Shown one piece after another: positions 36,359 to 43,673 of a DNA stretch of 64,000 nucleotides. This DNA comes from Daucus carota subsp. sativus. Its lineage: Eukaryota > Streptophyta > Magnoliopsida > Apiales > Apiaceae. The translations under genes and the position numbers were made by a program. The stretch spans positions 48,631,214 to 48,695,213 of the forward strand of contig NC_030381.2 in the NCBI RefSeq assembly GCF_001625215.2, read 5' to 3'. Numbering within the stretch: position 1 is the stretch's first letter; each line of letters starts with the position of its first letter. The notes beneath the pieces are model-generated. The model ran no database searches, had not been told where the DNA came from, and saw only the letters and a list, made by a program, of their open reading frames with translations.

Positions 36359-39300
36359 ATGGGGATACAAGGGCTTTTACCCCTGTTGAAATCAATAATG
36401 GTGCCTATACATATCAAAGATTTAGAGGGCTGTTCTGTTGCTGTTGACACGTATTCTTGGCTTCACAAAGGGGCGCTTTCGTGCAGTAAAGAGCTTTGTA
36501 CAGGCCAGCCCACTACAAAGTACTCTTTTTTATCTCTCACATTTGTATTTTTACTTCATATCGAAATGTGCCCAGATGGTTGTATGTTTCAAATTTTGTG
36601 ATTGAAGATGTTTTGTGCTGGTATTAGGCTTAGGAATGATGGGTTTGGCTTGTTTTAGTCGTTGATGCTTTGATTTCGTCAGTTCTTGATTAGGGTTTTA
36701 AAGGGTGTTACTTGTTTCGAAATGTTCAAAAAATCCCTGTTAAACTGCATTTTCGTGATTGCGGACTGTACTAGTGTTGATATAATTTCAAAAGAAAGAA
36801 TGAGGTAGTGAAAAGGCTTTTTTTTTTTTTTTGTTCAATTACTTCTGGATCTTTATTCAGGGCACAGAGAATAAGAGAAAGATCGAGGAGTAACAGATGC
36901 ATATATTCTCCTAGTGCTTGGCTTTATAGTTAGATCCTCACCTGCCATTCCTCCCTATATTTCAAATAAATTAACCATCAAAGAAAAGTTTTCACTTTTG
37001 GCTCAACAGTTTGTAATGCTAATAATGAGTTCCTTTTAAACTTCATTTTCTCAAGAATTGTTAGCATTGTTCTGGTGTTTAATTGAGCTTGGGTTTAAGA
37101 ATAATAGTTTTGCATTCCTGACAAATATTGATTTAAATGGAATGTAATTGTGGTTTTGAATTCTGTTTGAAATCACAGGCATATTGCCTATTGTATGCAT
37201 AGAGTGAATATGTTGCGGCATCATGGTATTAAACCAATTCTTGTCTTTGACGGAGGTCATCTACCAATGAAGGGTGAGCAAGAGAACAAGCGAGCAAGGT
37301 ATCCAAAATTCGCTTGTTATATATGATTTAATCTGCTTTGAGTTTATGTATATTTTTGTGGTTTCTTGTTCAGTAAAGACAAGTGCTAGTTTGGATCATA
37401 CACACCTAATCTCATTTTGCATCGGATAAGGTGGTAGTTTGCTACGTTGTACATTTAGAAATCAGTTTAAGAGTGTTGGCATTGAATGCAGATGGTAGTA
37501 ATAAGTCTAATTGTCATGAAAGGAAGCCCGGATGGTCAAATAATTTGCTGCCACATGGGGTTCTTTTGTTCCTCAACATCATATGATTGCATGTGTTGGT
37601 CCAAACATTCTCTGATAAAGAGAGTTTAAGACTATGAGATACTTTGTGTACCTATAGAAATTTGCACCCTCTATCTCCATTATTGAACTGCATGCGATCT
37701 GTCATTACTAGTTATAGCTGTCTTCGTCCTTGGCTTGCCTGAGTTTTCTGTATGTAAACATGCATGTTTGAGAAACTTTTGTAATGTGGTATGATCAATT
37801 CTTTAGAATTAGGGTGAAGGTTAATTTGAAGCTCTAGTTGAGTTAGGTTTTACATCTTCTGTCATTATTTTAAGTTATGATCGTTGGTTAGTTTTATTTA
37901 TAGTAGATGTGAAAAGTTTCTTTCAGTGATGTTATGTGATTATTCATAGCTAATATATACTATTAGAAGAAATATAACTAGTTTTTCTGAACACAGGTCG
38001 AGAAAAGAAAATTTTGAACGGGCACTTGAGCATGAATCAGGTGGTAATCGATCTGCTGCTTACGAGTGCTATTCAAAAGCTGTTGATATTACACCCTCTA
38101 TTGCATATGATCTGATTCAGGTATTGTATGAGTTTTCTGGTTAAAATTATGTTTCACTGTTCTAAGCATAATGTTATGTTAAGTTTATACTGTAAGAATT
38201 ATAGAGGCTCATCACAAATTAAATTCTTTTATATTGAATTCTGTTTGGTCCTACTGATATGTGGCTATTCAAACATCTTGCTTGGAAGGTATTAAAACAG
38301 GAGAATGTTGCTTATGTTGTGGCTCCTTATGAGGCAGATGCCCAAATGACCTTCTTGGCTGTGAACAAACTGGTTGATGCAGTCATAACTGAGGACTCAG
38401 ACTTGATACCATTCGGTTGTCCAAGAGTATGTTTTTATGGGCTATGTAATTTATTTGGTGACACCCTCAAGCATCTCCTTTGATATTTAAACTTGTGGCT
38501 GTTATACACATCCTTAGCAAAACTTTTCGGTACTTTATATTATATGTGAAAAAAATCTTATTATCTCGTAATCCAGATCATCTACAAGATGGACAAGTTT
38601 GGGCAAGGTGTTGAGTTTCATTCTTCTCTTCTACAACAAAACAAGGATCTAAATCTAACAGGTTTCACCAAGCAGATGTTTCTAGAGATGTGCATTTTGA
38701 GCGGTTGTGACTATTTGCAGTCTTTGCCTGGAATGGGCCTGAAAAAGGCCCATGGTCTTGTTAAGAAATTCAAAAGCTATGACAAGGTAAGTGTTATTGA
38801 TAAATCTCCTGATAGTACATTAATAAATCACCTGACAGTACATTCATTTACAAGTTGCATAAAAAACAACTAATCTGATGGTGATAGTGGCATTTTGTTT
38901 AATTTGTCCTTCCTGGGCACCATCATCACCTCCCTAGTTCAGCCATGATTTCCTAATGTTGTTTGTTATGTCTTATAATGTTCTATGTAGCCTGAATGAT
39001 TCTATATATGTTATGAAATCCAGGTTATTAAGCACTTGAAGTATAGTAATATTGCAGTTCCTCCTCTGTACGAAGAATTTTTCAGAAAAGCACTACTAAC
39101 ATTCCAACATCAAAGAGTTTATGACCCAATCAAAGCAGATATCGTACATTTATCTGACATTTCTTACAATGATGGGGAAGATATAGATTTCTTAGGCCCA
39201 TATCCTTAAGTACATCTATATTGTAAGCCTAATTCTTACAACACACACACACACACACACACATATTTACTAAATTAAAATAAATGAAGCCTTATTCTTA

Positions 39301-42300
39301 TATTAGATATGTCTTTATAGCCCATTCGGATATATATAAAATTTTATGATGATAATTATAGTACTCTTTAAATCCTGGCTTCCTCAACTCGGTGCACATC
39401 GATATCCCAGCATATAGCTAAGGGCATTGCAACAGGCGAACTTGATCCCTTTACTAAATTGCCATTTCAGGTACTACAACTCTCCCATTATCACTATTTA
39501 TTTCAGTTTTTAAGTTATGTCCTAATACATTTGCTTCTCTGTCTTTAAAATAAAAAAGAATGAGATCTACTTACTGTTAAATGCTTTAAACACACATTAT
39601 ACACAAAATAATTGAGTTCTACATCAAATAAGATGCACAATGTATAATGGGACGGAGGGAGTGGTGTGAGAGTCAAAATATGATCAATAAATGTAAGTTG
39701 GCTGTTGCTTAATCGATTTTTATATGCGAATCACATCTTTTCCTGTGATTAATTGTTCATATTTCCAAATCTCTGATTAAGATGTGTCACAATTCTCTAT
39801 ATGAGGATGGAACCACTGTTATCCTATCATTCATTTCGAATACTTACTTTCTCATATGTCACTGATATTATATGAATTCACTACCAACATTATCACATGA
39901 TGTTATTTTTAGTTAAAGCTTGTCCAGGTAATATATTTCTTAGCTGAAGCATTGTTAAGTTAATACTTAATATCATCTGTTTTTTGGTGGATATCACTCC
40001 TCTTTTTGTCTTATGAGACTTGCTTTTTTCGTAAAATCTGCATGTGCTTTGGTTTTTATTATGTACTCTCTTTTATACGACTAATATTTTTTTTCCCTTC
40101 TCTGGAAGCAGGGTAAGTGTGTTACAACTGTGTCAGTGCTTGATGGAACTGGTCAACCTTACAATACAAAGCCTGAAGGGGAAAGGAAAAAGATCGATTT
40201 GCCCGTGCAGAAAAATCTTCTGACCAACTACTTTTGTATCCACTTGGTCCATCTTCTGTTATATTTCTGCATGTTTTGTGTTCTGATGACTTTATATGCA
40301 TTTGGGAAAATTGGCAAATAATGATTAGCATCCCCTTCATTCCTGAATAAGTGTTACTCTGACTTTGTGATGTATGTTCAGGTGTAAAATACTTATTATT
40401 AATATAAGTTTTCAGGTTTTATATCAAATAATATAAAGTTACAAATACATTATTGATTTAAGAATTTAAATTTACCATTAATTATAAATATGTATTTCAC
40501 ACTCAAAATATGTGCCAAAGTTGAAGGGATGCTTAGTTTGAAACAGAGGGAATAAGTAAACATCATTTAATTTATTTAGTAGTTCAGTTTTTTTATCAAC
40601 ATAGGCATTGTGGGGTTGATTTGTAACCTGGAATGGAATAAAATTCTGGAAATCCAAATATTTACTCGAAGCAAGTCAGACAAAGTTAAAAATGTCAAGC
40701 TAACTTTATACATGTACGTCATTTGCAATGGGTCTACTTTATTAAACATAAGTAACCACTGTTGGAGTTTTTTCTTTATTTTTGTGATTAACCTGATCTA
40801 TATTTTTGATGTCCTTTGTTGAGTTTTCACTATTAGTGCAACTGTCTTGCTTTTTTATACATCTTTTAGTGCGAACTGTTTTGGTTTTTCTTTAAACTGT
40901 GAACTGTGAAGTGATGGAATGCATTTGATGTGGATTTTCTAAATTCTGTGAAGGGTTTTAAATTTGTTTCTTAAGTTCCCTTAACATTATAGGTTTTGCA
41001 TCTCTTGAAGCAAAGAGAAAATTTCGGGTCCCTCGAGTAACATCTAATAATCCTGAGATGAGTATTAAAGTTAACACTAGCGAAGATAATAATGAGACTG
41101 CTCTTTCTTATAACATGGATTGCTCACGTCCAGCCCTGGCATACTCTGGGGAACTGGAGAATAGTGACCCAACAAAAGATTCTGTAAGTTATCTATACAA
41201 AAAGGTCTCCTTTCTAAACGTATGTTAGGCAGTACCTATGGCAATATATTGTAATGTGATTAGTTTCTTTGTACATTTTGGAATAATGATATTGTTTAAT
41301 AGGTGTTGAATGACGTGGCTCCAAATTCATCCTTATCTTCGGAATTGGCTCATGGTGAGATCATTTTCCTCAAGTGTCTTAATGATTCTTTTTGTAGTGT
41401 TCCTTATTCTTTTAATGTTTTATAAAAGGAACAAATGGCAAAGAGGTAGACTTGGGAAGTCCGCAAAGCCCTTTTCTTGATCAACCTAGGCACTCCTCTA
41501 TATATCCCTGCATGGTGGTTAATAAGGAGCAGCAACAACACATGGAATCAGATACAGTTATGGGCAAAACTAGAATTGAGCAAAAGAAGGTGATTGTTAG
41601 AAGCTCTTACTTCCAGAAGAAGAGTGCCAAGGGTAATGGTCTAGAAAACAAGGATGGCGAGCTCTTATTAAAGGACAGTTATTCTGCTGCTAGGTCTGTG
41701 AGTTCTATACACAAATATGAATATAAGTCTACCTTTGACAGAACTGAGAATGAACCAATATTCGAGCAAGGACACATGAAATCAGATACAGTTATGAACA
41801 AAATGAGAGTTGAGCCAAAGAATGTGATTGTTAGAAGCTCTTACTTCCAGAAAAATAGTGCAAAAGGGAATGGTCTAGAAAACAAGAGCGGAGAGATGTT
41901 TGTCAAGGACAGTAACCACACTGCTAGGTCAGTAAGTACCATACAAGAATGTCAATTTAAGTCTGCCTTAGACAGAAGTGAGGGTGAAACAACACTTGAG
42001 GATAGAGATACTATTCTTCAGAGCCCTATCAAATCAGTGATAACAGCTGATCGAGAAAATACAAATGAGACAATGTTAATTGATGTTGCTGCCTCTGATT
42101 CACAAGCTACTGCTACTCCAGTGCATGAGTTTAAGTCTGCTAAAGATGCAGCTCTGTGTAAAACAGGAGCAGAAAGTAGAAAGGTGGTAGTGAGGAGTTC
42201 CTATTTTAAGCATAAGGCAGAAAAGGAAAATGATACTATTCATGATGCAGGCAATAAGCACTACACAGGCACAAATAGTAAACGAAAACTTGATGACAAT

Positions 42301-43673
42301 GTTCAAATAGTAAGTCTTTATTTTAAATGAGCATATTGCCTGATTTTCTGGGTTATTTTTGTAATAACTTTTCTGATTTTAAAGTCTAATGCTACTTATT
42401 TGTTTATTTATTGATATCATTATCTATTTCAGGATATAACGACTCGTAAATGTTTGCGGGCAAATGAATCTTCTCCCATCCAAAGTATGTATCAACCTCC
42501 CCTGTTAGATATTGAAATGTATATCTAAGTTGAAAAGCATTGTCTGTCAAAGTTTAGTTTGATATGCCTACTTATTTAACTCAAACAGCTCTAGTTACCG
42601 GAAGGCCTCAGGCACAGATTTCTCCTAAAAATGGCCTTTGTATTCATCCCTAGGATACTTTTTATACCTAATCTCTGTATGCAACTCCAAAAAGCCCAAG
42701 ACTATTATGTATATGTAATTTTTTTTTGTAACTATTGTATTTTAAATTGCATTTAGCTGGAAAAATATATAACCAAATACAGTAATATTATTTCAAGTCA
42801 TTTGCATGCAAGAAGTGTGATACCACTATACCAGTTTACAAGTTTAATAAGATACACTAAAATTTAGGTACATGCACCTTGGATCCAGAGGATTCAATGG
42901 AGACCAAGAATGAACAAGATAAGTTTGGATGTAACATTTCCCATATAGATAGGTATTCTGATATAGCGGGGAAATCTGTAGACAAATTTGCCGCGCTCAT
43001 ATCATCCTTCAGATACACAGCAGGTTCTCGTCCAAGTGGTCTCCGTGCTCCTCTAAAAGATGTCCGAAACACCTGTACTAACAGGTACATTCATTTTCCT
43101 TGATGCCTGCAATTTATGTTGCATATGCTCTGTAATTATCTTTCCCTTTATGTTTTCCCAGTGGGATGAATGATGCTGCAGATCTGAACAAATTCGCCTA
43201 TGTACCTACTAAGAGGAAAGAACTGTCAGCATCTCCTCATTCTCCGGTAAAAGATGTCCCGAACACCTGCACTAAACGGTAAATGAAATTTTCCTTGATG
43301 CCTGCCATCTAGGTTAAAGAAGCTCTCCAACCACATATCTCATCATCTTTCTCTTTTATGTTTTCCCAGTGGGTTGAGTGATGCTGCAGATTTGAGCAAA
43401 TTTGCCTATGTACCTACCAAGAGGAAGACATTGTCAGCACCTCCTCGTTCTCCTCTAAAAGATGCCCGGAACACCTGTACTAATATGTAAACATCATTAT
43501 CCTTGATGCCTGCCATTAAAGTTACACATGCTCTGCAACAATATATTATTTGTATTCTTATCTTTTTACTTATGTTTTTCCGCAGTAAAACGAAGGATGT
43601 TGCAGATTTGAGCAAATTTGCCTATGTACCTACAAAGAGGCTGACTTTGTCAGCATCTCGTAGTCGTAGATAA
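36359..43673 (+). CDS. EXO1: Exonuclease 1 (EXO1), Rad2/XPG family, 946 aa
   Basis: 5'-3' exonuclease and flap nuclease of mismatch repair, end resection and recombination. Sixteen exons: 36359-36519, 37179-37298, 37997-38120, 38289-38426, 38577-38786, 39024-39199, 39398-39470, 40112-40235, 40993-41183, 41303-41354, 41429-42309, 42433-42484, 42868-43084, 43162-43278, 43370-43486 and 43586-43673, total 2841 nt in frame. The N-terminal nuclease starts [12 protein letters not shown]. Metal-binding acids are in place: D30, D78, E150, D152, D171, D173 and D226 (human EXO1 has D225). The helix-hairpin-helix segment reads [15 protein letters not shown]. Intron 6 (39200-39397) appears to be a U12-type AT-AC intron; without it the frame stops at 39207. 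The C-terminal half is longer than I recall for Arabidopsis EXO1 and contains repeats (see findings). The nuclease part is secure; exons 9-16 are supported by phase and conserved segments such as [14 protein letters not shown] and [12 protein letters not shown]. Confidence 0.93.
39200..39397 (+). other. Probable U12-type AT-AC intron in EXO1
   Basis: The 5' end is ATATCCTTAA, matching the U12 consensus (A/G)TATCCTT. Near the 3' end TTCCTCAAC (39380-39388) matches the U12 branch site TTCCTTAAC, with the branch A about 10 nt from the terminal AC (39396-39397). Joining 39199 to 39398 gives [20 protein letters not shown] in frame, which fits the EXO1 family. A (CA)n tract at 39239-39262 lies within the intron. 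Confidence 0.82.
39537..39662. mobile_element. Truncated Stowaway-like end in an EXO1 intron
   Basis: AATGGGACGGAGGGAG at about 39647-39662 is a Stowaway right end. A matching left end is not recognisable upstream. It lies in intron 7. Confidence 0.4.
40331..40552. mobile_element. Degenerate Stowaway-like MITE in EXO1 intron 8
   Basis: Left CCCCTTCATTCCTGAATAAG and right GATGCTTAGTTTGAAACAGA... GGGAA before TA form an imperfect inverted pair, giving an old insertion of about 220 bp within the intron. Confidence 0.5.
43040..43673 (+). repeat. Tandem duplication of EXO1 3' exons, about 200-bp unit
   Basis: Exon tail, intron and next exon head repeat in tandem: CTAAAAGATG(T/C)CC at about 43053, GTAAAAGATGTCC at about 43246 and CTAAAAGATGCCC at about 43454, each followed by an intron with CTTGATGCCTGC and an exon with GATTTGAGCAAATTTGCCTA or its variants. 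Exons 14 and 15 are both exactly 117 nt and phase 2; exon 16 is a shortened third copy ending in the stop. Confidence 0.85.

Follow-up and report, generated by a model that had tools for sequence, protein, structure and literature searches.

The EXO1 gene of carrot (Daucus carota subsp. sativus) lies on the plus strand of a 64,000-nucleotide stretch of contig NC_030381.2 (the window, whose first base is position 1), and its intron 6 is almost certainly a genuine U12-type, or minor-class, intron with AT-AC ends, to judge from the bases at its borders and the reading frame across it. The donor, branch site and AC end that an earlier reading of these letters (the original prediction) had claimed for this intron are all present when the bases are read directly, and most of the minor-spliceosome machinery looked for is encoded in the same genome, so that the U12-type AT-AC interpretation proposed there is supported. 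Intron 6 is the single AT-AC intron of the gene model, in which the other 14 of 15 introns are GT-AG. Positions in nucleotides (nt) and protein lengths in amino acids (aa) are as follows.

36359 to 43673, plus strand: EXO1 coding span in the final gene model, 16 exons, with a coding sequence of 2841 nt including the stop and a product of 946 aa; assigned by its human EXO1 match and its XPG_N and XPG_I domains
39024 to 39199, plus strand: exon 6, ending FLG plus CC in phase 2; aligns to human EXO1
39200 to 39397, plus strand: predicted intron 6, AT-AC, U12-type (minor), 198 nt; called from its bases, the frame and the junction tests
39200 to 39209, plus strand: predicted U12-type 5' splice site ATATCCTTAA, its first eight bases an exact RTATCCTT match
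39207 to 39209, plus strand: in-frame TAA, met if intron 6 is kept, with a 312-aa product ending FLGPYP
39380 to 39388, plus strand: predicted U12-type branch site TTCCTCAAC, which differs from TTCCTTRAY at one position and places the branch A at 39387
39396 to 39397, plus strand: predicted AC of the 3' splice site, 10 nt downstream of the branch A
39398 to 39470, plus strand: exon 7, which completes codon P310 (CC/A)

The reading frame gives the strongest indication of where the intron lies. With intron 6 retained, the exon 6 frame stops at the TAA at 39207-39209, after residue 312; with it excised, the frame is restored and codon 310 is split in phase 2. Both the stop and the recovery of an EXO1-family match on removal of 198 nt had been foreseen by the original prediction, and the exon 6-7 junction indeed falls in a gap-free stretch of the alignment to human EXO1, in which P310 faces human Q315. 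With only modest identity near the junction, the argument for the join comes from the register of the alignment and not from its letters. The claimed length is correct, but the interval had been given as 39199 to 39398, and these two positions are flanking exon bases, the intron itself running from 39200 to 39397.

The in-frame TAA would also fit a state in which intron 6 is retained and EXO1 is a pseudogene or the source of a 312-aa protein only, and Arabidopsis EXO1 is tabled as alternatively spliced in PMC7042379, where the event is unnamed, so that a retained isoform may occur. We consider such a state extremely improbable, given that the frame stays open through all 16 exons and closes with a proper stop after 946 aa and that the similarity to human EXO1 runs past the junction. 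The exon 6-7 peptide has two matches at an expectation value (E) of 0.001 in the 441-Mb carrot genome, which are the two exons of the EXO1 locus itself, and a further copy of exons 6-7 was not seen anywhere else in that genome at this threshold.

By its predicted protein, the gene that carries the AT-AC intron is EXO1, a member of the Rad2/XPG nucleases, and is nearer to EXO1 than to FEN1, XPG or GEN1. Exon boundaries were set by eye, with the reading frame and the splice dinucleotides rather than transcripts as the guide. The best solved-structure match to the first 439 aa is human EXO1 (E 1.9e-80, 274 bits, residues 1-327), and the runners-up are FEN1 (94 bits for the best), RAD2 (72), an XPG construct (60) and GEN1 (39); the Pfam domains XPG_N and XPG_I are both above cut-off. 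A search for EXO1 relatives among genome contigs confirmed one of 33 pattern matches, and the same search among viral contigs confirmed none of five. The one confirmed is an EXO1-like stretch at positions 279-446 of a contig (L028) whose title assigns it to the metagenome-assembled genome of an uncultured actinobacterium, with 31 of 56 residues identical to the carrot protein. The significant match spans query residues 110-165 only, away from the exon 6-7 junction, and the stretch may be a eukaryotic fragment that was mis-binned or is chimeric.

The choice of junction was examined by testing every pairing of donor and acceptor within a defined range of the interval and aligning the resulting proteins to the human EXO1 segment. 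This gave 38,335 pairs, 2,748 of them frame-open. The pair 39200/39397 scores 86, and 15 pairs including this one score at least 86 (the highest 95); 13 represent one 198-nt excision in different registers, and the other two remove 189 nt. Only 39200/39397 among these 15 has AT-AC, AT-AG, GT-AG or GC-AG ends. One of the other 14 has AT-AT ends, a combination described as almost absent in plants in PMC10639083. The other frame-open AT-AC pairs rank 37th or lower. With these scores, homology narrows the excision down to a span of a few bases, within which the exact borders are chosen by the splice signals.

The original prediction further held that the exon 6 frame meets its stop before any usable GT donor, and this is overstated: the GTs at 39117 and 39144 in exon 6 can be joined in frame to downstream AGs, giving four open pairs, with scores of at most 52 compared to 86 for the AT-AC pair. 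Four GT-AG and six GC-AG frame-open joins are on offer for a different arrangement, in which one of them is used and EXO1 is short of some residues. The best GC-AG join (39196-39417), however, yields eight residues fewer than the AT-AC join, scores 68 and ranks 573 of 2,748, and the best GT-AG join (39144-39410) yields 23 fewer, scores 52 and ranks 1,486, and we attach scarcely any likelihood to such a junction. Because GT-AG joins give clearly worse proteins, a gene finder limited to GT-AG would probably misplace or break EXO1.

The consensus of the U12-type 5' splice site is RTATCCTT, and some 10-16 nt separate the U12-type branch site from the 3' end of the intron. At 39200-39207 intron 6 matches this donor consensus without a mismatch, whereas none of the donors of the other 14 EXO1 introns begins RTATCCTT. 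The intron ends in ...GTGCAC, with its last base 10 nt beyond the branch A at 39387. For the branch site of U12-type introns PMC5932401 gives the consensus TTCCTTRAY. The branch site TTCCTCAAC departs from this consensus at one position.

Removal of intron 6 by the major (U2) spliceosome would accommodate this imperfect branch site, and a small class of U2-spliced AT-AC introns has been reported in the accounts of PMC6310983 and PMC2831892. It is nonetheless very unlikely here, since the donor agrees with RTATCCTT throughout, the one-mismatch branch site is 10 nt from the end, and AT-AC introns make up 0-0.05% of the U2-type introns of four plants in the IAOD figures of PMC7367187.

The carrot genome encodes much of what a U12-type intron would need. 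Matches above the Rfam cut-offs number one for U12, four for U6atac and two for U11; a CENATAC/CCDC84 gene is present, as is a relative of TXNL4B/DROL1 (E 5.9e-25 to TXNL4B compared to 3e-6 to U5-15K). The putative 5' end of U11 can pair with ATCCTT of the intron 6 donor at six of six positions (one of them U-G), U6atac can pair with TCCTT of the donor at five of five, and the U12 small nuclear RNA can pair with the branch site at seven of eight, with the branch A bulged. As stated in PMC11039992, AT-AN introns require CENATAC, and Arabidopsis DROL1 mutants are defective with AT-AC introns.

A plausible course of splicing is that U11 would recognise the donor by pairing with its AUCCUU and U12 would pair with UUCCUCAAC at the branch site, after which U6atac would displace U11 at the donor and act in catalysis; the branch A at 39387 would attack the donor, and exons 6 and 7 would be joined within codon 310. 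By analogy with other species, the AT-AC ends would make intron 6 depend on the arm formed by CENATAC and TXNL4B/DROL1. Were the intron not removed, translation would be expected to end after residue 312, leaving roughly the N-terminal third of EXO1, in which the nuclease core lies, and the messenger RNA would most likely be open to nonsense-mediated decay.

Several results weigh against the assignment of intron 6 to the U12 type. The branch site TTCCTCAAC has a C where pairing with U12 wants a U, which leaves the seven pairs of eight given above. A second AT-AC join, 39200-39388, is frame-open, gives a protein three residues longer and scores 83, but the AC that it would use lies inside the branch site. 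The six-base pairing count with U11 and U6atac is unspecific, in that three of the 14 GT donors reach six of six with both, compared to six and five for the donor of intron 6. U4atac was not found in the genome above its cut-off (best E 0.097), a result that does not show its absence; at a relaxed threshold 11 of 14 control genomes also give matches, and such matches were not counted. A search with the U11-48K zinc-finger model, which has only 25 positions, gave no match in the genome either. The layout of donor, branch and AC (60-1000 nt) occurs three times in the window over both strands, against a shuffle mean of 1.2, and this number is reached in 11 of 60 window shuffles. A strict genome-wide pattern is without enrichment (seven compared to nine in a reversed control), although it was defined by shorter introns and perfect branch sites, and intron 6 does not fit it.

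The octamer ATATCCTT occurs six times in the window against 4.74 expected. Motif statistics taken alone were rejected as evidence, as octamer and layout are near chance in the window and the genome pattern is unenriched. Because the motifs alone are near chance window-wide, the evidence for a U12-type intron 6 is their coincidence with the coding junction. In shuffles of intron 6 that keep its dinucleotides, first base and last base, donor, branch and AC were in place together in none of 200,000, and the branch alone was in place in 131 of 20,000. The coincidence of these signals with the junction that the frame demands is not chance.

AT-AC introns of this make are very likely held by other genes of the carrot genome too. 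Arabidopsis GSH2 is among the U12-intron genes tested in PMC4892727, and the CBP20 U12 introns have AT-AC ends across the land plants studied in PMC5932401. GSH2 served as a positive control, and the Pfam domain GSH_synth_ATP marks three GSH2 loci in the genome. In all three, ATATCCTTTT follows LNE plus AA and is itself followed by an AC end; removal of the interval gives LNEKHKITTVRKTL and joins LNEK to HKITTVRKTL in each locus. The acceptor was picked among three in-frame ACs per copy as the one that keeps most protein, GT-AG joins being left out, and presumably fits the GSH2 family protein. A first automatic pairing of donors and acceptors was rejected, its exons being out of frame and not neighbours. 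No branch site with one mismatch or fewer was found near the chosen AC in the three loci. The plant introns of CBP20 and GSH2 resemble EXO1 intron 6 in their AT-AC ends, U12-type donor and mainly GT-AG gene, but they lie in other genes, and the GSH2 introns described here have a branch site with more than one mismatch, compared to one in EXO1.

The original prediction called AT-AC introns a small minority of plant introns. This is true of splice sites as a whole, of which AT-AC is about 0.06% of pairs in the 121 plant genomes of PMC6310983, but it overstates the rarity within the minor class: AT-AC introns are 13-26% of the U12-type introns of maize, rice, soybean and Arabidopsis by the figures of PMC7367187, or 4.8% by another study quoted in PMC5932401. 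EXO1 intron 6 is ordinary in kind, and in plants it is undescribed for EXO1 as far as the searches went, in that none of the listed papers looked into names a plant EXO1 minor intron in its main text. Such an intron may well be listed already in intron databases. Vertebrate EXO1 is of the same gene family and likewise has a minor-class intron, reported at the level of the gene: mouse Exo1 is among the genes whose U12 introns are affected in Zrsr1/2 mutants in the account of PMC7312986 and is called a minor-intron gene in a preprint (PMC13192996), and PMC7612377 includes human EXO1 in a shortlist of U12-intron genes.

Among the various other features of the gene, we note that intron 6 contains a (CA)11 microsatellite at 39242-39263, which may vary among individuals. 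Intron 8 (40236-40992) starts GTATCCACTT and holds TCCCTTAAC, whose A is 8 nt before the last base, and among 20,000 shuffles of its last 100 nt there are 217 with a branch in place; the intron may be a second minor intron, with GT-AG ends, or a former one. Exon 11 contains a 234-nt tandem duplication (41531-41998) with copies 79% identical. The protein has three [IV]VRSSYF motifs, the third beyond the exon 11 duplication, and these appear to resemble the MLH1-binding MIP box. The last exons (43044-43664) are tandem repeats at a spacing of 194-216 nt, and exons 14, 15 and 16 each encode ADL[NS]KFAYVPTKR, which suggests multiplication of C-terminal exons in EXO1.

A more far-reaching scenario is that the plant and vertebrate EXO1 minor introns are one ancient intron, present since the plant-animal ancestor, and that through it the minor spliceosome controls the supply of EXO1 for mismatch repair, end resection and meiotic crossing-over, in plants by way of the AT-AC-specific DROL1/CENATAC arm. 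We regard this as rather unlikely. U12 positions are seldom shared between human and Arabidopsis (8 of 93 in PMC7367187), and the idea of a shared intron is weakened because U12DB, as presented in PMC2831892, has just two U12 introns of Arabidopsis whose human orthologues are also U12 introns, and these are in EXOSC5 and BRCC3, not in EXO1. As EXO1 carries a minor intron in animals as well, a comparison of intron positions bears on the retention of minor introns since the plant-animal ancestor. Annotation restricted to GT-AG introns may truncate or distort EXO1 models, and the full-length EXO1 product of plants should depend on the minor spliceosome.

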